DNA of 64,000 bases from Cyanobium sp. PCC 7001. Its GTDB lineage: Bacteria > Cyanobacteriota > Cyanobacteriia > PCC-6307 > Cyanobiaceae. The DNA is taken from positions 1,233,051 through 1,297,050 of the forward strand of contig NZ_DS990556.1 of the NCBI RefSeq assembly GCF_000155635.1, read 5' to 3'. The notes under the pieces were generated by a model. The model did no database searches, was not told the DNA's origin, and was given only the letters and a program-made list of their open reading frames with translations. Within the stretch, counting starts at the first letter, position 1. Every line of letters begins with the position of its first letter. A program made the translations under genes and the position numbers. This document shows, piece after piece, positions 34,325-45,226 of the stretch.

Positions 34325-35737
34325 TCAGCTGGAGCGCCGCTCCAGCCAGCCGCGCAGCTTGCCCGGGTTGAGCAGGCCGGCGGGGTCGTAGGCCGCCTTG
34401 GCGGCCACCTGATCGGCATCGATCACGCCGAGGCCCCCGTCCTCCACCGTGATCGTGTGGGGATTGAAGATCAGCGCGCCCAGCTGCCGGCAGTGGCGCA
34501 TCAGCTCAGCCAGGGCCTCCTCGCCCCGCCAGCGCAGCAGCGGCAGCGCCGCCAGCCGCGGGGCTCCCTGCTGCCGCACCCCCTCCAGGTGCCAGAGGAG
34601 GTCGTCCCCCCAGCGCTGCCTCAACGCGGCCAGACAGGGACCTTCCGGCTGGGGCAGGAGCATCTGCAGGTAGGTCCAGCCCTGCCGCTGGGCGCGCCAG
34701 TGCAGGGTGGTGTGGTTCCAGGTGAGCTCCCGCAGCGGCAGTCCGCGGCTCTCCCCCTGGGGTGCCTGCCAGCGCAGCGTGCCGCCACGGGCCTCCAGCC
34801 AGTCCGGCAGCACCTCCAGGCTGTCGGGGGCAGCCAGCAGCAGCAGACGGTGTTCGCCTGGTGCCGCTACCGGACAGCCCGCCGGCCAGGGGGAGCGGAC
34901 GGCGATCGGAGCCTCCAGCAGGCTGAGGGCGTTGAGCAGCAGGGCCGTGGCGGGCAGGGCGGTGGCGGCGGCGAGGGCCAGGTCCCAGGCCTCGAATCCC
35001 ACCACCAGCTGCTGCCAGGCCACCGCTTCGGTGGTGGGCAGCCGCAGGGCCGTGAGGATGCCGTTGGTGCCGTAGGCATGGTTGAGCGGAGCGCTGGCGG
35101 CCGCGTCGAGCCGCAGCAGCCGGGGCTCGGGTTCCACGGTCACCACCTCCAGGCCGAGCAGGTTGCCGGGGTCGCGCAGGAAGCCCCAGCGCAGCGAGCC
35201 GATGCCACCGGAGCCCCCGGCGATGAAGCCGCCGATGCTGGCGCTGCGGAAGGTGCTGGGCTGGAGGCGCAGGGCCCGGCCGTGGGGAGCCAGCTGCTGG
35301 TCAAGGGCCGCCATCACCAGGCCCGCCTCCACCTCCACCACTCCGGTGCGGGGGTCCAGCTGGCGCAGCCGGTTCAGACCCGAGAGATCCAGCACCACCC
35401 CACCGGCCAGGGGCACGCACTGGCCGTAGTTGCCGGTACCCGTGCCCCGCACGGTGAGGGGCACGCCCTGAAGGGCGCAGACCGCCGCCACGCGCCGCAC
35501 CTGATCCACCGTGGTGGCCCGCGCCGCCAGCTGGGCCCGGCAGCCCCGGAACAGGGGCACCAGCACGGGGGAATAGTCGTGGTAGTCGCGGGAAAGACGC
35601 TCCAGCTCGGCCGGTTGCGCCGCACCGATCAGCTCCAGCTCCGGATCGGTGCGCGCCAGCTCGGCCGCCAGCTCCTGGATCAGTCCGGCGGGGGGCAGGT
35701 CCGCCGCGCTGTCATCGGCACGGGTGGGCATCGGCAT
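34325..35737 (-). CDS. FAD-binding (GlcD-type) oxidoreductase
   Basis: A 470-residue protein of the VAO/GlcD flavin family. The FAD domain has LTVRGTGTGNYGQCVPL and SIGGFIAGGSGGIGSLRWG, where glycolate and lactate oxidases have similar glycine-rich loops. The C-terminal part is a substrate domain ending in AAYDPAGLLNPGKLRG, typical of the family. Substrate not identifiable. It begins one base after the stop of the amidohydrolase gene, so both are almost certainly translated together. The two adjacent ATGs (35737 and 35731) are equally possible. Confidence 0.83.
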   Translation of the reverse strand: MPMPTRADDSAADLPPAGLIQELAAELARTDPELELIGAAQPAELERLSRDYHDYSPVLVPLFRGCRAQLAARATTVDQVRRVAAVCALQGVPLTVRGTGTGNYGQCVPLAGGVVLDLSGLNRLRQLDPRTGVVEVEAGLVMAALDQQLAPHGRALRLQPSTFRSASIGGFIAGGSGGIGSLRWGFLRDPGNLLGLEVVTVEPEPRLLRLDAAASAPLNHAYGTNGILTALRLPTTEAVAWQQLVVGFEAWDLALAAATALPATALLLNALSLLEAPIAVRSPWPAGCPVAAPGEHRLLLLAAPDSLEVLPDWLEARGGTLRWQAPQGESRGLPLRELTWNHTTLHWRAQRQGWTYLQMLLPQPEGPCLAALRQRWGDDLLWHLEGVRQQGAPRLAALPLLRWRGEEALAELMRHCRQLGALIFNPHTITVEDGGLGVIDADQVAAKAAYDPAGLLNPGKLRGWLERRSS

Positions 35738-35738
35738 C

Positions 35739-37061
35739 TCAGCAGGAGGGGGCGGGGGCGGTACCCATCCCGGCCAGCAGCGGGGACGGCTGCTCCCGGG
35801 GCGGGGGCTCCAGCCATCGGCCCGCCCGCAGCACCCGGCGGTGAGGCGTGCGGGCCAGGAAGCCGGTCCAGTCGGTGGCATCCAGCACCACCAGATCGGC
35901 GGGCGCACCCTGCCGCAGCACCCCGTCCCAGTCCAGGCCCAGCAGCCGTGAGGCGGCCGTGGTGAAGGGGGTCAGGCCCTGCCGCCGGGTGGGCACCACG
36001 TGGCTGGTGATCGCCGCCTGCCGCATCAGCTCCAGGGGGTCGAAATCGCTGCCCGGGAACCAGGGATCCTGCACGTTGTCGGCACCGATGGCCACCTCAA
36101 CCCCGGCGCGCTGCAGGCTGCGGATCGGGGCCTGCACCCGCAGCAGCGGGGTTCGGCCCGGCCGCCGCCCCAGCAGCCAGAGGTTGGTGAGCGGCAGGGC
36201 CACCACCCCGATGCCGGCCTGGGCCAGCTGCTCGGTGAGCGGCGCCAGGCGCCGTTCAGGCAGCAGGGCCAGGCTGGCGGCATGGCTGCAGACGAGCGGC
36301 ACGACGCTGCGCTGCTCCAGCACCTGCCGCACCACCAGCGCCACGCCCTGGGCCGGCATGCAATCGGCCTCGTCGACGTGCAGGTCCACGCCCACGCCGA
36401 AGCGCTCCGCCAGGGCCAGCAGGGCCGCCAGGGCTTCCCGGTCGGCCAGGCCCGAGGCGTAGGGCGGCCCCAGCACGCCCCCCAGCACACCGCCACGATC
36501 GCTCACCCAGCGGGCCAGCTCCTCCCCCTGGGGCGTGAGCCAGTGGGACAGGGGGACCAGGGCCACGAGCTGCAGCTCCACCCGGCCAGCCCAGCGCTGG
36601 CGCAGCTCCAGCAGGGCCTCCCAGCTGGGGGTGGCGGCCGGGCCGACGCTGTCCACGTGGCTGCGGATGGCCCGCAGCCCCTGGCGCCAGGCCAGATCCA
36701 GGGCGCGCTCGCCCCGCTCCAGCACCTGCGCGGCGCTGCGCTCGCCGTGCTCCTGCTGGTTGCGCTGCAGGGCCCGGGCCATGGTGCCCTCCCAGTTGGG
36801 GTGGGCGAGGGCGGTGAACGCCTTGTCCAGATGGGCATGGGGCTCCACCGGTGGCGTGAGCGCCAGGGGGAGGGCCTCACCCGCCGCGGCCGCGGCCTCG
36901 AGCGGTCGTAGATCGGTGATCCGGCCTTCGGCCCACCGCAGCTCCAGGGCCACCAGGCCATCGGCATCCACCGGGCCGAGCGGCCCCAGCCGCGCGTCGA
37001 CCAGGGCTCGGGGAATCCTCAGCCGCAGGCCACCGGATCCGGCGCGGGGATCCACCCTCAC
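35739..37061 (-). CDS. Amidohydrolase family protein, cytosine-deaminase-like
   Basis: A 440-residue metal-dependent hydrolase. The N-terminal small domain leads into HxH (His75/His77 in EPHAHLDK). Further ligands appear in LHVDEAD, VCSHAASL and the aspartate of GADNVQDPW, the pattern of CodA and related deaminases of ring amides or amidines. The exact substrate cannot be assigned. It is paired with the FAD oxidase gene one base downstream, which would fit stepwise oxidative breakdown of a nitrogen heterocycle. That pairing argument is inference. Confidence 0.78.
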   Translation of the reverse strand: MRVDPRAGSGGLRLRIPRALVDARLGPLGPVDADGLVALELRWAEGRITDLRPLEAAAAAGEALPLALTPPVEPHAHLDKAFTALAHPNWEGTMARALQRNQQEHGERSAAQVLERGERALDLAWRQGLRAIRSHVDSVGPAATPSWEALLELRQRWAGRVELQLVALVPLSHWLTPQGEELARWVSDRGGVLGGVLGPPYASGLADREALAALLALAERFGVGVDLHVDEADCMPAQGVALVVRQVLEQRSVVPLVCSHAASLALLPERRLAPLTEQLAQAGIGVVALPLTNLWLLGRRPGRTPLLRVQAPIRSLQRAGVEVAIGADNVQDPWFPGSDFDPLELMRQAAITSHVVPTRRQGLTPFTTAASRLLGLDWDGVLRQGAPADLVVLDATDWTGFLARTPHRRVLRAGRWLEPPPREQPSPLLAGMGTAPAPSC

Positions 37062-37068
37062 AGGGAAG

Positions 37069-37632
37069 TCATGGCGCAGTCCCGGCGGTGACGCCCGGCT
37101 CGGGAGCCGGCTCGGGCGCCGGGTCGCCGACGAACTCCCGGCCCTGCACCAGCACGAACTGCCCGGCCACGCCCACCACGGTGGTCTCCAGCCGGGGAAC
37201 GCGCCAGCGCAGCACCCGCTGGCCGCCCAGATCGCTGTGATACACGCTGAGCAGCCCCAGGTTGGTGCGCCGGGTCTGCTGCAGCACCAGCGCCCCGAGG
37301 GCCTGGCGCTGGGCCGCCACCAGCTCGGGGCAGTTGCCGAGGGCGAGGCGCAGCAGACCCGGCAGCCGATCGCCGTGGCACACCTCAGCGGTGATCTCCT
37401 TCACGAGCCGCTCACCGGCGTAGTCGGCGAACTCGGCGGGACCGGGATTGGTCCAGGCCAGGCTGCCTCCCACCAGGGCGAGCAGGGCCGGCACGCCCAG
37501 CCAGGGGGAGAGCCAGGAGGGGCGGGCGGGAGAGGGCAGGAACACCGGAGGCGGCAGTGCTGACAGATTGGCACCGCCGGGCGGGCGCTGGACAGGGAAA
37601 GCGTCCGGACCCCAGGCGATGGGTTGGTACAT
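37069..37632 (-). CDS. DUF4359 protein
   Basis: The 187-residue frame has a short polar N-terminus, a hydrophobic anchor at about 45-60 (VPALLALVGGSLAWTNPGP) and a DUF4359 domain, a cyanobacterial family of unknown function. Landmarks are ADYAGERLVKEI, a CHG and GNCPE cysteine pair and the C-terminal LETTVVGVAGQFVL. It is probably anchored in the plasma or thylakoid membrane. It lies 7 bp upstream of the amidohydrolase gene and may be the first gene of that unit. The first 40 residues are poorly supported as to start. Confidence 0.7.
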   Translation of the reverse strand: MYQPIAWGPDAFPVQRPPGGANLSALPPPVFLPSPARPSWLSPWLGVPALLALVGGSLAWTNPGPAEFADYAGERLVKEITAEVCHGDRLPGLLRLALGNCPELVAAQRQALGALVLQQTRRTNLGLLSVYHSDLGGQRVLRWRVPRLETTVVGVAGQFVLVQGREFVGDPAPEPAPEPGVTAGTAP

Positions 37633-37645
37633 TGGCGCGGATCAC

Positions 37646-37719
37646 GGCGGGCGTCGCCAAGTGGTTAAGGCAGCGGCTTGTGGCGCCGCCATTCGGGGGT
37701 TCGAATCCCCTCGCTCGCC
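37646..37719 (+). tRNA. tRNA-His (GTG anticodon)
   Basis: GCGGGCG at 37647-37653 pairs with CGCTCGC. An extra G at 37646 faces the discriminator C at 37719, the usual encoded G-1 of histidine tRNA. The stem GCGGC/GCCGC closes TTGTGGC, giving GTG. T-loop TTCGAAT is normal. A run of T follows (37723-37728). Confidence 0.96.
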
Positions 37720-37727
37720 CTCTTTTT

Positions 37728-37787: not shown

Positions 37788-39935
37788 TCAGGTAAGGGCG
37801 TCCAACAGACGGCCGCCGCCGCACCGCACCGGATCGGCGCAGGGCAGCCCTGTGGACAGCTCCACCTCAGCGCACGCCCGTTGGGCCGCCCCCGGCTCGA
37901 GGCCGGCCGTGTTCAGCGCCACCGCCCGCACCCGCGGCCGCCTCCCATCCGGCCGCGCCAGGGCGGCCAGGGCCTCCACCGCCGTGATCAGCTCCCCCAG
38001 GGGCGGGATTGCCAGGGCGGGAAGACCCTTGATGTGGCGCTGGCCGGCCCGGTGCACCAGCAGCAGATCGGTGGGCTGGCTGCCGCGCAGCAGGGGCAGG
38101 GTGGCGGTGGAGCCGGGGTGGGCCAGCGACCCCTGCCCCTCCACCAGCAGCAGAGCGGCCGGGCCCAGGTCCCGGCCCGCCTCCAGCACCGCGGCCTCCA
38201 CGGCACCGGCGGCGTAGTCCACCCGCACCGCATCGAGCGGTACCCCCGCGCCGGAGATCAGGATTCCCGCCTGGCCCGTGCCCACGAAGCGGGCCTCCAG
38301 CCCCCGGCGCCGGGCCTCGGCCAGCAGCTCCAGGCAGGCGCTCATCTTGCCCACGGCCATGTCGCTGCCCACGGCCAGCAGGCGGCGGCAGGGCAGGGCG
38401 GCCGCCCGGGCCGCGGCCACCGCCAGAGCGGCAGGCTCCTGGCGCAGGTCCCAGATCCAGGCCTGCGGATGGCGGAGGGCGGCCAGTTCGGGATCCGCCG
38501 CGATGCGGCTGTGCAGGCCGCTGGCCACCGAGAGGCCGGCCCGCAGCGCCGCCGCCACATCGGCCCGCGCCTCCCCAGGCAGCTGGCCCCCCGAGGGGGC
38601 CAGCCCGATCACCGCCACTTCCGGGCCCAGCGGCAGGGCCTCCGCCACGCTCCCCACCACGGGCACCGCCCGCTCGATGCCGGTCACGGCCTCCAGGCTG
38701 GCGCCGGCATGGCGGGGATCCACCACCGCCACGATCGGCCCCGGGCGGTAACGCAGCAGGGCCAGCCCCGTCTTGCCGGAGAGGTTGTCGAGCCCCCCAT
38801 GGAGCAGCACCACCACCGGCGCCTCCGGCCGCAGCGGCCCGGCGGCGCTGCCCTGCCAGGCGGCGGGCACGGCGATGCCGAGGCCAGGCTGCCGCGGCAG
38901 CTGCAGCTGGTCAGCGGCGCAGTGCAGCCCGGTGAAGGGGTCGTCCACCAGGTTGAGGTGGCTGTCGAGATCCGGCCAGCGCACGAGGGGCAGCAGCTGG
39001 GCGGCGGCCCCGTTCAGCAGGGAGCCGTCGGAGTAGCAGCCCAGCATCAGCCCGAGCCCGAGCCGCCGGGCGGTGCGGGCCATCAGCAGCGCCTCGCTCA
39101 GCCCGCCGCTCTTGAGCAGCTTGATGTTGATCCCGTCCACGTGGGGGGCCAGGCGCAGCAGGTCGTCCAGGCCCCAGCAGCTCTCATCCGCCACCAGGGG
39201 CAGGGGGCAGTGGGGATGGAGGGCAGCGAAGCCCGCGGTGTCGCAGGCCGGATCGGGGTGGGGTGCCAGCGGCTGCTCCAGCAGCACCACCCCGTGGGCC
39301 TCCAGCAGCGGCAGCATCGCCAGGGCCTGCTCCAGGGTCCAGCCGCCGTTGGCATCCACCTGCAGCTCACAGGCCACGCCCGTGTCCTGCCGTCGTTGCC
39401 GCAGCGCCGCCGCCACCGCCGTCAGCAGGGCGCGGTCGTGGTCCACACCGTCCGGACTGCCCAGCTTGAGCTTGATGCGGGTGGCGGGGAGCTGCTGCCA
39501 CCAGCGCGCGAGCCGCGCCAGCACAGCCTCGGTGGAGCCCAGCCCGAGGGTCACGCTGGTGGCGGCGCAGGCACCCGGATCCAGGCCCCAGAGCCGCCAG
39601 AGGGGCTGGCCGAGCCATTTGCCGCGCCAATCGTGCAGCGCCAGATCCAGGCCGCAGCGGGCCGGCGGCGACAATCCGGCCAGCAGCGGCTCCAGCGCCT
39701 GCTCCTCCAGAGGCGAGGCCTCGCCGAGCTGCGGCAGCAGCGGCTCCAGTTCAGCGGCGACAGCTTCGGTGGCGTAGTGCCGGTGGCCCGTGTCCAGCCC
39801 GCCGGTCTCCCCCCAGCCCCGCAGGCCGTCGTGCTCCACCTCCACCAGCAGGTGCTCCACCGCCGCGGTGACCCCACGGCTGATGGCCAGCGGCACGGCC
39901 TTGGTGAGGGTGAAGCGGCGCAGGCGGCAGCGCAT
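37788..39935 (-). CDS. Fusion of enolase-superfamily dipeptide epimerase (DgcA/YcjG type) with DUF1611 (DgcN type)
   Basis: A 715-residue two-domain protein. Residues 1-358 are an enolase-superfamily epimerase with KxK Lys155/Lys157, metal ligands Asp194, Glu220 and Asp250, and the second base Lys272 ([10 protein letters not shown]), as in L-Ala-D/L-Glu epimerases. Residues about 372-715 match DUF1611, with [13 protein letters not shown] (about 521-533), [26 protein letters not shown] and [15 protein letters not shown]. In some marine bacteria the separate pair DgcA (N-acetyl-D-glutamate racemase) and DgcN (D-glutamate N-acetyltransferase) uses D-glutamate; the same two domains are joined here. 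All catalytic residues are present. Substrate is inference: D-Glu, N-acyl-Glu or a muropeptide-derived dipeptide. Confidence 0.85.
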
Positions 39936-40026
39936 CGGCTCGGTGTGCCGGCAGGTCGGGCGTTGGCCTCACGCTGGCATGGATCGACGGCCCTCACCCA
40001 CCCCAAGAGCGCAGGTCACGCACCCC

Positions 40027-41475
40027 ATGTCGGAAACTGGAGCGATGACGGCCACCCGACTCCAACCCACCGCCGCGATCCAGGCTCCGGCCGCAGCTCC
40101 AGCCACGGCTGCGGCCCCGGATCGGCCCGTGCAACGGGGCAGCTACTGGATCACCACCTTCGGCTGCCAGATGAACAAGGCCGATTCCGAGCGCATGGCC
40201 GGAATCCTGGAGGCCATGGGCTACCGCGAAGCCGGCGCCGAACTGGAGGCGGATCTGGTGCTCTACAACACCTGCACGATCCGCGACAACGCCGAACAGA
40301 AGGTCTACAGCTACCTGGGCCGCCAGGCCCAGCGCAAACGGGCCAACCCCAATCTCACCCTGGTGGTGGCGGGCTGCGTGGCCCAGCAGGAGGGCGAAGC
40401 GCTGCTGCGGCGGGTGCCGGAGCTGGATCTGGTGATGGGCCCCCAGCACGCCAACCGGCTGGAGACCCTGCTGAGCCAGGTGGAGCAGGGCCAGCAGGTG
40501 GTGGCCACCGAGGAGCACCACATCCTCGAGGACATCACCACCGCCCGCCGCGACAGCAGCGTCTGCGCCTGGGTGAACGTGATCTACGGCTGCAACGAGC
40601 GCTGCACCTACTGCGTGGTGCCCTCGGTGCGCGGCCAGGAGCAGAGCCGGTTGCCCGAGGCGATCCGCCTGGAGATGGAGGGGCTGGCCGCCCGGGGCTT
40701 CAAGGAGACCACCCTGCTGGGTCAGAACATCGATGCCTACGGCCGCGACCTGCCCGGCATCACCCCGGAGGGCCGCCGCCGCCACACCCTCACCGATCTG
40801 CTCCAGTTCGTGCACGATGTTGAGGGCATCGAGCGGATCCGTTTCGCCACCAGCCATCCGCGCTACTTCACCGAGCGGCTGATCGACGCCTGCGCCGCCC
40901 TGCCCAAGGTCTGCGAGCACTTCCACATCCCCTTCCAGAGCGGTGATGACGCCGTGCTCAAGGCGATGGCCCGCGGCTACACGGTGGAGCGCTACCGGCG
41001 CATCGTCCACCGCATCCGCGAACGCATGCCCGATGCCGCCATCAGCGCGGATGTGATCGTGGCCTTCCCCGGCGAGACCGACGCCCAGTTCCGCAACACC
41101 CTGCGCCTGGTGGAGGAGATCGGCTTCGACCAGGTGAACACCGCCGCCTACTCGCCACGGCCCAACACCCCCGCCGCCGACTGGCCCGATCAGCTGAGCG
41201 AGGCGGTGAAGGTGGAGCGGCTGCGGGAGCTCAATGCCCTGGTGGAGCAGCAGGCCCGTCGCCGCAGCGCCCGCTACGCCGGCCGCACCGAGCAGGTGCT
41301 GGTGGAGGGCACCAACCCGCGGGATCCTTCCCAGCGCATGGGCCGCACCCGCACCAACCGGCTCACCTTCTTCCCGGCGCTGCGCCCCGATGGCCGTGCG
41401 GTGGAGCCGGGCGATCTGGTGAACGTGCGCATCGAGGAGGTGCGGGCCTTCTCGCTGAGCGGCACACTGGCCTGA
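40027..41475 (+). CDS. miaB: tRNA-2-methylthio-N6-dimethylallyladenosine synthase
   Basis: A 482-residue methylthiotransferase. The N-terminal UPF0004 domain holds Cys47, Cys83 and Cys117. The radical SAM cluster is CxxxCxxC with Cys189, Cys193 and Cys196 in GCNERCTYC, and a TRAM domain lies at about 405-482. It adds a methylthio group to i6A37 in tRNAs reading U-starting codons. The ATG at 40027 is used; an ATG at 40045 is also possible. The first 33 residues are Ala/Pro/Thr-rich and not conserved. It diverges from the epimerase fusion with 91 bp between. Confidence 0.95.
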
Positions 41476-41506: not shown

Positions 41507-42649
41507 ATGCCCCCTGAGCCCAGCCCCGTCGCGAACCCCGGCCCGGTCCGCGTGGGCCTGGTGTTCGGTGGAGCCTCCGGCGAGCACGCCATCTCCATCC
41601 GGTCGGCGGCCACCGTCGCCGCGGCCCTGCGCCGCGGCGAGAACGGGCGGCGCTATGCGGTGAGCTGCTTCTACATCGACCCCCAGGGGCGCTGGTGGGG
41701 GCCGGAGCTGGCCGAGCAGGTGCTGGACCAGGGCACGCCAGCCAGCCCGGAACAGCTGGCCTCCGCCCCGGCCCGTCCGGGTTTTCAGGGATTCCCCACA
41801 GGCGCCCTGGCCATGGAGGTGTGGTTCCCGGTGCTGCATGGGCCCAACGGGGAGGACGGCACGATCCAGGGCCTGTTCACCCTGATGCAGGTGCCCTTCG
41901 TGGGCTCGGGCGTGCTCGGCTCTGCCGTGGGGATGGACAAACAGGCGATGAAGGCCGCCCTGGCGGCCGCAGAGCTGCCCCAGGTGCCCTACGCCTGCGT
42001 GGAGGCGGGCGAGCTGGAGGCCGACCCGGCGGCGGTGCTGGAGCGGCTGGAGCGGCAGCTGGGCTACCCCTGCTTCGTGAAGCCGGCCAACCTGGGGTCG
42101 TCGGTGGGCATCAGCAAGGCCACCGACCGCGACGGTCTGCTTGCCGGGCTGCGCAGCGCCGCCGCCCTCGACCCGCGTCTGGTGGTGGAGCAGGGCGTCA
42201 CGGCACGGGAGCTGGAGTGCGCCGTGCGCGGCGGCGGCCCCCGGCCGCTGGAAGCCTCCGTACTGGGCGAGATCCGCTACGACGCGGACTGGTACGACTA
42301 CGCCACCAAGTACAGCGAGGGACGGAGCCACACCGTGATCCCCGCCGATGTGCCCGAGGGCATCGCCGCCCAGGCGCGCGGCATGGCCCTCGAGGCCTGC
42401 CGGGCGCTGAACGCCTCGGGGCTGGCCAGGGTGGATTTCTTCTACACGGCGCCAGCGCCTGGAGATGGGGGTGAAGGCCGGCTCTGGCTCAATGAGATCA
42501 ACACCCTGCCGGGATTCACCAGCCAGAGCATGTACCCCATGCTGTGGGAGGCCTCGGGTGTGCCTCTGGACACCCTGGTGGATGGGCTGATCACGGCGGC
42601 ACGAGACTGGCCCCGTCCGGCGTTGCAGATGGGAGGACTCCCGGCATGA
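41507..42649 (+). CDS. ddl: D-alanine--D-alanine ligase
   Basis: A 380-residue ATP-grasp ligase that joins two D-alanines for peptidoglycan precursors. The family blocks [46 protein letters not shown] and [19 protein letters not shown] are intact. It is about 20 residues longer than E. coli DdlB owing to loops, which is normal for the DdlA type. It overlaps the next gene by four bases and leads into ftsQ-ftsZ. Confidence 0.95.
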
Positions 42650-43056
42650 TTCACGGCTTGCTCTGGCTGCCGCTGCTGCTCATCTTCGTGCTGCTCACCA
42701 CCCTGGGGTGGCTGGAGCGGCGGCGGCAGCACCTGTTCCGCGCCTGGGCCGAAGGGGCCGAGCTGGCCAAGCTGGATGGCTGCGGCGCCGCGCGCCTCGT
42801 GGATGGGGTACTGAGCTGGAGCACCTTCTCGGCGGGTCAGCTGGCGGAGAAGGACCGGTTCGTGATCAAGCAGCTGGAACTGGTGGAACTGCTGGCCCTC
42901 GGCTCCGGGGAGGCTCCCCTCACCGAGGAGGCCCAGGGTGCCTGCAGGCTCCGGCTGGTGGGCGGTGGTGAGCAGAAGGATCTGCCCTTCTCCGATGCCG
43001 AACGCGCCCGCCGCTGGATGGCCGAACTGATGGCCCGCTCCCGCTGCGAGCTGTGA
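42646..43056 (+). CDS. Small membrane-anchored protein between ddl and ftsQ, unknown
   Basis: A 136-residue protein with one N-terminal hydrophobic helix (about residues 3-21, [21 protein letters not shown]) followed by a cytosolic or periplasmic domain of about 110 residues. GGGAGG 10 bases upstream and four-base overlaps with both ddl and ftsQ fix its ends and imply tight coupling. I do not recognise the family. Its place in the division and wall cluster suggests, but does not prove, a role in septum formation. Confidence 0.75.
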
Positions 43057-43874
43057 CCCAGACGCGAACCCTTCCCCCCGGAGCCGAACGGCGGCGCCAG
43101 CTGCGGCTGCAGCGGCGCCGGGAGCGGCTGCGCAACGCCTGGCGCCTGCTGGTGCTGCTGGGGATCGCCGGCGGCCTCGGCTATGGCCTGCTGCGCCAGG
43201 GCTGGAGCCTCACCGGCCCCGGCCAGGTGGAGGTGGTGGGCAGCAGGATGGTGACCCCTGAGCGGGTGATCGAGGCGGCGGGACTCACCTTCCCCCAGCC
43301 CCTGCTGACCCTCCAGCCCCGCAAGCTCGCCACCGACCTCTCCGAGACCCTGCCGGTGGAGGAGGTGCAGGTGACCCGGCTGATGGCACCGCCGCGGCTG
43401 CGGGTGAGCCTGGTGGACCGCCAGGCCGTGGCCCGGGCCGAACGGCGCACCCCCCAGGGGGTGGAGCGGGGCTATGTGGACCGGCTGGGCCACTGGATGA
43501 ACAGCCACCAGGGCGAGCTGATGGCCGATGAGGCCACGGCGGGCCTGCTGGTGAAGGGCTGGCAGCCCCGGCACCGGGCCAGCCTCAGCAAGGTGCTGGC
43601 GCAACGGACCGTGCTCGGCCCGGATCTCAAGGAGATCCGATTCGCCCCGGAGGGCAGCCTCTGGCTGCGCAGCGCCACCCTCGGGGAGGTGCGGCTCGGG
43701 CCCGCCGACGCCCAGCTCACCCGGCGTCTGCAGGTGCTGGACCACCTGGTGGAGACCCTGCCGGCCCAGCTGAAGGGCAAGCGCCTGCGCACCCTGGATC
43801 TGAGCGATCCCGAGCAGCCCGAACTCGCCCTGGTGGGCACACCCCCGACCGAGAAGCCGGCGCAACAGCCCTGA
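43053..43874 (+). CDS. ftsQ: Cell division protein FtsQ
   Basis: A 273-residue bitopic protein. A basic cytoplasmic tail (residues 1-30) precedes the membrane helix at about 31-48. A POTRA domain (about 56-125, VEVVGSRMVTPERVIEAAGL) and a beta domain follow. FtsQ recruits FtsB and FtsL to the divisome in the periplasm. The GTG at 43053 overlaps the previous stop (GTGA). It lies 137 bp before ftsZ. Confidence 0.88.
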   Translation: MTQTRTLPPGAERRRQLRLQRRRERLRNAWRLLVLLGIAGGLGYGLLRQGWSLTGPGQVEVVGSRMVTPERVIEAAGLTFPQPLLTLQPRKLATDLSETLPVEEVQVTRLMAPPRLRVSLVDRQAVARAERRTPQGVERGYVDRLGHWMNSHQGELMADEATAGLLVKGWQPRHRASLSKVLAQRTVLGPDLKEIRFAPEGSLWLRSATLGEVRLGPADAQLTRRLQVLDHLVETLPAQLKGKRLRTLDLSDPEQPELALVGTPPTEKPAQQP

Positions 43875-44011: not shown

Positions 44012-45226
44012 ATGGCGCAAGACGACGGCCCCAAGTTCGTGCCGCCGATCCACACCGGTGAACACACCCTGGTTCCTGAAGGCCCCACCGCCAATGGTGC
44101 CTCCCTCACCCGTGCCGCCATGACCCATACCCCGACCGCCGCCGCCGGCATTGTTCCCAGCCAGTCGGCCCGCATTGAGGTGATCGGGGTGGGGGGTGGC
44201 GGCAGCAATGCCGTCAACCGGATGATCGCCTCCGACCTGCAGGGTCTGGGCTACCGGGTGCTCAACACCGACGCCCAGGCGCTGCTGCAGTCGGCGGCCC
44301 AGAAGCGCCTCCAGCTGGGCCAGAAGCTCACCCGGGGCCTGGGGGCCGGCGGCAACCCGGTGATCGGCCAGAAGGCGGCCGAGGAATCGCGGGCGGAACT
44401 GCAGGAGTCGCTGCAGGGGGCCGACCTGATCTTCATCGCCGCCGGCATGGGCGGCGGCACCGGCACCGGCGCGGCGCCGATCCTGGCGGAGGTGGCCAAG
44501 GAGGTGGGCGCCCTCACCGTGGGCATCGTCACCAAGCCGTTCAGCTTCGAGGGACGCAAGCGCATGCGTCAGGCGGAGGAGGGCATCGCCCGCCTGGCGG
44601 AGCACGTAGACACCCTGATCGTGATCCCGAACGATCGGCTGCGCGATGAGATCGCCGGAGCCCCGCTGAACGAGGCCTTCCGCGCCGCCGACGACGTGCT
44701 GCGCATGGGGGTGAAGGGCATTAGCGACATCATCACCAGGCCTGGCCTGGTGAACGTGGACTTCGCCGACATCCGCTCGGTGATGTCCGACGCCGGCACG
44801 GCCCTGCTGGGCATCGGAGTGGGCTCGGGGCGCAGCCGGGCCAGCGAGGCGGCCCAGGCGGCCATGAGCAGCCCGCTGCTGGAGTCGGCCCGGATCGACG
44901 GCGCCAAGGGCTGCGTGATCAACATCAGCGGCGGCAAGGACATGACCCTCGAGGACATGACCACCGCGTCCGAGGTGATCTACGAGGTGGTGGACCCCGA
45001 GGCGAACATCATCGTGGGCGCCGTGGTGGACGATCGCCTCGAAGGGGAGATCCACGTGACCGTGATCGCCACCGGCTTCGACGGCGGCACCACGTACCGC
45101 ACCGATCGGCCGGCCATGAGCTTCACCGGCACCACCCCGTTCACCCCCAGCACCGAAGAGAAGGGCGCCAAGATTCCGCCGTTCCTGCTCAACCGCCAGG
45201 GCCGCAGCTCTGAGCAGGACAGCTGA
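44012..45226 (+). CDS. ftsZ: Cell division protein FtsZ
   Basis: A 404-residue tubulin-like GTPase. The tubulin signature GGGTGTG lies at 147-153, and [17 protein letters not shown] at about 55-71. NVDFADI and GKDMTLEDM follow. The first 50 residues are a variable N-terminal extension common in cyanobacteria; an ATG at codon 37 is an alternative start. The C-terminus ends [18 protein letters not shown], keeping the PPFL-type peptide that binds partners. FtsZ forms the division ring. A CATAAT at 43977-43982 could be a -10 element in the ftsQ-ftsZ gap. Confidence 0.97.

Follow-up and report, generated by a model that had tools for sequence, protein, structure and literature searches.

The fused gene and its neighbors

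The window analyzed here, a 64,000-nucleotide stretch of the Cyanobium sp. PCC 7001 genome, carries on its reverse strand an ATG-started frame of 715 codons in which an epimerase is followed by a complete DUF1611 protein. The gene and its surroundings comprise the following features (window positions; basis of assignment in parentheses).

34325..35908, reverse strand: FAD-binding oxidase-like gene (domain, locus comparison)
35739..37061, reverse strand: amidohydrolase gene, cytosine-deaminase-like (domain, locus comparison)
37069..37632, reverse strand: DUF4359 gene, downstream of the fused gene (domain; conserved neighbor among close relatives)
37647-37720, forward strand: tRNA-His (gtg), between the fused gene and the DUF4359 gene
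37788..39935, reverse strand: fused epimerase-DUF1611 gene, 715 aa (single ATG frame without a stop; four Pfam domains)
37788..38816, reverse strand: DUF1611 half, residues 374-715, with the P-loop-like motif at 523-533 and VEGQGSL at 598-604 (Pfam, alignments)
38817..38864, reverse strand: junction or linker, about residues 358-373, near low-confidence stretches of the predicted model (junction alignment)
38822..38826, reverse strand: GGAGG, 5 nt upstream of the GTG at 38816 (codon 374, in frame), a possible internal start (sequence)
38851..38852, reverse strand: site of an 11-base gap against G437, the closest relative compared, which has an overlapping stop/start ATGA there (alignment; exact placing depends on the aligner)
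38865..39935, reverse strand: epimerase half, residues 1-357, MR_MLE_N and MR_MLE_C, with K155/K157, D194, E220, D250, K272, and DLDSH
39883..41475, forward strand: miaB, divergent neighbor (open frame begins at 39790)
41507..42649, forward strand: ddl, D-Ala-D-Ala ligase (domain, locus comparison)
43053..43874, forward strand: ftsQ-like gene, FtsQ-type POTRA domain (domain, locus comparison)
44012..45226, forward strand: ftsZ (domain, locus comparison)

The encoded protein contains MR_MLE_N (residues 12-117), MR_MLE_C (140-356), DUF1611_N (408-499), and DUF1611_C (506-711), with the scores for PF02746, PF13378, PF07755, and PF17396 all above the gathering cut-offs, and in the genome the protein is matched over its whole length at its own locus only. 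Matches to solved structures at E 4e-100 for the DUF1611 half (2obn) and 3e-37 for the epimerase half (3iji) are too strong for the identity of the halves to be due to chance. The epimerase residues K155, K157, D194, E220, D250, and K272 are invariant in an eight-row alignment with DgcA and other epimerases, as are G523, D525, G529, and K530 of the P-loop-like motif and E599, G600, Q601, G602, and L604 of VEGQGSL in a nine-row alignment with DgcN; the two DUF1611 motifs are defined here from this alignment and not after a published definition. These results confirm both the single two-domain frame and the retention of catalytic residues in each half that a preliminary description of this DNA had proposed, the frame being known from one assembly of one isolate. 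A predicted model of the fused protein has two folded parts, with weak stretches that include residues 10-25 and, before and into the junction, 321-340 and 342-366; given a mean pLDDT of 74.4 and a pTM of 0.49 from 17 alignment rows, we make no claim on the arrangement of the two domains. Foldseek matches were 2obn, the dipeptide epimerase 3ijq, and DgcN 7xrj.

Both halves look constrained. Comparison of Cyanobium sp. PCC 7001 (G000) with G437, whose halves are 91% and 89% identical to those of the fused protein, gave dN/dS values for the epimerase and DUF1611 of 0.24 and 0.21 (NG86) or 0.06 and 0.07 (YN00), over a span much of which may precede the fusion. Amino acid changes polarized with G457 numbered nine on the G000 branch and eight on the G437 branch for the epimerase (16 unclear), and 10 on each for DUF1611 (22 unclear), so neither half appears to change faster in the fused lineage.

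The unfused pair of close relatives has the same surroundings. In 14 of 14 close loci listed (six genomes of the family, eight contigs), it is flanked by FolC, pentapeptide, FAD-binding, amidohydrolase, and DUF4359 genes on one side and by MiaB, Ddl, FtsQ, and FtsZ genes on the other, with one or two end genes missing near contig ends in L036, L040, and L042. Among six more distant pair loci, MiaB-Ddl-FtsQ-FtsZ lies beside the pair in one (L125), and the block was not found within about 6-7 kb of the pair in L126, L127, L130, L131, and L132. Because the wall genes are constant in the close loci but present in one of six distant ones, they probably mark a location and not a pathway and say little about function, and we do not count as evidence the cell-wall link at which the preliminary description had hinted.

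At one distant locus (L130; G213:C6:176231-179483), the epimerase and DUF1611 genes are followed at once, on the same strand, by one for a DUF819 membrane protein, a possible uptake partner. DUF819 was rejected as a shared transporter: 16 of 386 genomes have a match, and one beside DUF1611 was seen in G213 only, the G360 copy lying on short contigs.

The epimerase-DUF1611 pair and its relatives

The two halves correspond to a widespread gene pair with near-strict co-occurrence in cyanobacteria. In a survey of 386 cyanobacterial genomes, 121 had the epimerase (E up to 1e-15) and 121 a strong DUF1611 match (133 matches, of which 12 weak ones were dropped), with both in 120; the exceptions are G211, with DUF1611 alone, and G053, with the epimerase alone in a genome with 9% contamination. 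Synechococcus elongatus, included as a control genome, was also matched by DUF1611. The pair is adjacent, within 1.2 kb on one strand, in 109 of the 120 genomes; its members are 1.4-2.4 kb apart in five and located elsewhere in six. The epimerase comes first in 101 of the adjacent pairs (including this genome and a decayed pair in G266) and DUF1611 in eight; these eight belong to a single family (f38) of a class other than that of Cyanobium sp. PCC 7001. DUF1611 is also first in Haloprofundus and five proteobacterial records (L074, L075, L076, L078, and L118), the epimerase is first in Bradyrhizobium, and dgcN and dgcA adjoin in Ruegeria, Sphingobium, and two Vibrio records. Two opposite gene orders together with the repeated association point to a shared task of both proteins.

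A second DUF1611 gene of Cyanobium sp. PCC 7001 (C1:2226374-2227417; L002, L105) matches only the DUF1611 half of the fused protein, to which it is 34-36% identical. No epimerase match was found near it in 19 kb, and in a 35-row DUF1611 tree, the deepest branch of which is weak (60/14), it groups with copies from four other genomes in a separate clade. It follows a glutamate-synthase-domain/CDGSH gene; no match to such a gene was found beside the second-type DUF1611 in the short flanks of L094, L095, and L096.

The pair is also seen on plasmids. Of the 40 plasmid matches listed, 23 (H6-H28, e.g., NC_019390.1), all from Klebsiella or Enterobacter, span DUF1611/dgcN, epimerase/dgcA, and an ABC transporter ATP-binding gene, one being unannotated; D-Glu or peptide use may travel with those plasmids. 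Phage matches comprised 36 records with one place each, including 32 from Erwinia and two from Dickeya phages, none covering 80% of the query, and in the 10 listed, one half was matched. Nine listed Erwinia phages (~266 kb, e.g., MZ443780.1) have a DUF1611 match, annotated as hypothetical, that spans 38% of the query at an identity of about 31-33%.

The preliminary description had likened the halves to DgcA and DgcN of D-glutamate use, and this kinship holds: the DUF1611 half is 35-37% identical to three annotated DgcN proteins in the nine-row alignment and matches the DgcN structure 7xrj at E 6e-46, and the catalytic residues are common. As in dgcN-dgcA, two protein families stand side by side, the epimerase half with the enolase-superfamily catalytic residues and DUF1611 partner (here fused) of DgcA, the other half with the P-loop-like and EGQGSL motifs of DgcN. 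The fused gene differs from dgcN-dgcA in having the epimerase first and joined, and the LysR regulator or symporter found beside dgcNA in some records is absent from its flanks. The protein scores 218.9 bits on the DgcN profile (NF041892, curated cut-off 480; Ruegeria DgcN scores 551), 159.4 on that of DgcA (NF042940, cut-off 400), and 122.6 on that of the L-Ala-D/L-Glu epimerase YcjG (NF011708, cut-off 343), and since it lies below all three cut-offs, we assign it to none of these families. With the unfused cyanobacterial pair it shares both families and, in 101 of 109 adjacent pairs, the gene order, but it is one gene instead of two; the Anabaena DUF1611 protein Ava_3511 (2obn) is 52% identical in the fold match.

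Assigning an epimerase activity is harder. Escherichia coli YcjG, annotated as an L-Ala-D/L-Glu epimerase, scores 424 on NF042940, above the DgcA cut-off, and DgcA names may therefore be unreliable when given automatically. A Deinococcus epimerase that lacks an annotated DUF1611 neighbor scores higher on the DgcA profile (238) than on that of YcjG (141), and NCBIfam ranking was rejected as a discriminator. In dipeptide epimerases, the DxD motif has a role in binding. It is present near the C-terminal end of the barrel (DLDSH, 322-326), and it failed as a discriminator because DgcA and dipeptide epimerases share it. In a 36-row epimerase tree, the cyanobacterial rows form one clade (100/100) apart from the proteobacterial DgcA rows, which are not one clade, YcjG joining Vibrio DgcA (92/85); the tree, in which the group label AEE is our own and partly covers unannotated rows, was likewise set aside as a guide to substrate. 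Because profiles, motif, and tree separate the epimerase activities poorly, the substrate is guessed mainly from the DUF1611 partner, and the sequence gives no means of choosing DgcA over dipeptide epimerase activity.

It is possible, if unlikely, that the epimerase half works on murein L-Ala-D/L-Glu in cell-wall recycling and that DUF1611 acts either on what it produces or on some other substrate. Sequence and fold searches both rank first, among solved epimerases, a dipeptide epimerase from Bacteroides in complex with L-Ala-D-Glu (3iji/3ijq), the DLD motif is as in YcjG, the genome has one NlpC/P60 protein, ddl, ftsQ-like, and ftsZ are nearby, and the Deinococcus relative adjoins NlpC/P60 and peptide transport genes. 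However, DLD occurs in DgcA too, the wall genes adjoin the pair mainly in close relatives, and the presence of DUF1611 in 120 of 121 epimerase genomes would be left unexplained. Known L-Ala-D/L-Glu epimerases (YcjG 1jpd, 1jpm, and Bacteroides thetaiotaomicron 3iji) share the fold, KxK, three metal ligands, K272, and DLD with the epimerase half, but they stand alone, whereas the fused protein is tied to DUF1611 and scores below the YcjG cut-off. We favor a bifunctional enzyme that would both acylate and racemize D-Glu or a near relative, a reading to which the sequence lends a roughly even chance.

Junction and origin of the fusion

In G437 the two genes overlap, the epimerase stop TGA lying inside ATGA and the DUF1611 start being the same ATG. 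Compared with G437, an 11-base gap in Cyanobium sp. PCC 7001 takes out ATGA and leaves one frame, and an extra 15-base in-frame gap lies just before it in the fused gene. Ancestrally, the epimerase gene would have been followed directly by the DUF1611 gene, with stop and start usually overlapping or touching, and an 11-base deletion would have removed both signals to give the single frame. We infer this direction (loss here and not gain elsewhere) from the unfused relatives: both halves are present in 13 of 13 genomes of the genus and match separately in all 12 others, although in one of these, G553, the DUF1611 gene is split in two. We read these alignments as a probable natural fusion, by a small deletion, of two genes that were translationally coupled.

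The fusion is rare. The family search gave matches in 198 of 400 genomes and, among the matches listed, four single matches span the protein, that of this genome without a stop and those of G478, G573, and G578, each with a single TGA separating the halves. Both halves lie on one strand at 110 loci (fewer in distinct genomes, since several places carry two ids); of these, only that of Cyanobium sp. PCC 7001 is fused; four have the halves in the same frame with one stop between (L045, L046, L047, and Ruegeria L074, in which DUF1611 is first), and 105 have them in different frames. Wide occurrence of the same fusion, named in the preliminary description as a possible objection, is thus not seen, and the fusion is not a cyanobacterial trait, this being the only one of 386 genomes with an intact single frame. 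We found no report of the fusion in the open-licence literature searched, PMC3605383 and PMC5808125 included.

Among the strong DUF1611 matches in the 386 phylum genomes, no other frame longer than 480 aa was listed except one of 24,637 aa at G175:C2, an artifact of masked bases (3000 N in 7001). The long-frame fusion candidates G671, G691, G175, and G471 were rejected because their halves are not in one open frame. A 304-aa frame in G266 (G266:C1:700783-701334), with the epimerase at 4-128 followed by a DUF1611 end, is apparently a decayed pair joined by internal deletion.

We regard it as unlikely that the fusion is purely formal, either through an internal GTG that still gives a separate DUF1611 protein or through a sequencing or assembly error at the junction. 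Three in-frame GTG codons (374-376), where the model places the first DUF1611 strand (374-377), have GGAGG 5 nt upstream, so a shorter separate DUF1611 product is possible; any ribosome starting at the ATG must still make the fused protein, as it meets no stop. The preliminary description had named a frameshift or separate start and stop signals for two proteins as evidence against a fusion; one frame runs through without a stop, and a candidate internal start is present. The halves do not share an open frame at the other loci (109/110) and the junction comes from a single assembly, but a gap that exactly removes the stop and start and restores the frame, outside any homopolymer, is not a usual error, and the genome is in two contigs and 99.99% complete. 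Natural fusion of the coupled pair remains our reading of the junction.

Proposed activity and its meaning

In the enolase superfamily two lysines have recognized roles (K157 and K272 here). The founding paper on DgcN and DgcA is said to be that of Yu et al. in ISME J in 2023. In the texts available, the two enzymes convert D-Glu to N-acetyl-D-Glu and then N-acetyl-L-Glu (PMC11747546, PMC12363236, PMC10845958), EC 2.3.1.312 plus 5.1.1.25 lead from D-Glu to N-acetyl-L-Glu (PMC11747546), and dgcN is the key gene of the D-Glu racemization pathway (PMC12363236).

In the proposed bifunctional enzyme, the DUF1611 half would acylate D-glutamate or a closely related compound, in the simplest case with acetyl from acetyl-CoA. 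The epimerase half, with Mg2+ (D194, E220, D250) and the two lysines, would interconvert N-acyl-D- and N-acyl-L-glutamate. From there, N-acetyl-L-glutamate could feed into arginine synthesis, for which the genome has ArgJ; it also has one gene of the Asp/Glu-racemase family. Joining would be expected to fix the halves at 1:1 and perhaps to pass the intermediate between them, with no new reaction. We infer the substrate, the acyl donor, the direction, and the fate of the product, and no reported activity for a cyanobacterial member of either family was found in the literature searched. Counting against D-Glu, the DUF1611 half is only slightly closer to DgcN than to the second DUF1611 gene of its own genome.

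The DUF1611 P-loop may be dethiobiotin-synthetase-like. It is doubtful that the DUF1611 half, in place of an acetyltransferase, is a ligase or kinase that uses ATP to form an amide or peptide for the epimerase to invert: the P-loop-like GxDxxxGK and EGQGxL are kept in all nine aligned rows, identity to DgcN is modest, and the title of the cyanobacterial structure 2obn gives no function, but the texts available assign an activity to a single member, DgcN, which is an acetyltransferase, and the partner is the same type of enzyme in both settings.

The domains, the gene pair, and a cyanobacterial DUF1611 structure were already known; judged by the literature searched, the one-gene form appears new. 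As a rare natural indication that the two proteins belong together, the fusion adds to a pairing that holds in 120 of 121 epimerase genomes and occurs in both gene orders. It provides a one-gene expression construct for testing a widespread cyanobacterial enzyme pair, and a clear case in which a small deletion appears to have merged two coupled genes into a single protein. The fuller proposal, that one polypeptide in a phototroph turns D-glutamate to N-acetyl-L-glutamate, passing the intermediate between its halves and feeding arginine synthesis, seems rather unlikely. If true, the near-strict pairing would mark an unrecognized route into arginine or D-Glu salvage in about one-third of the genomes of the phylum.
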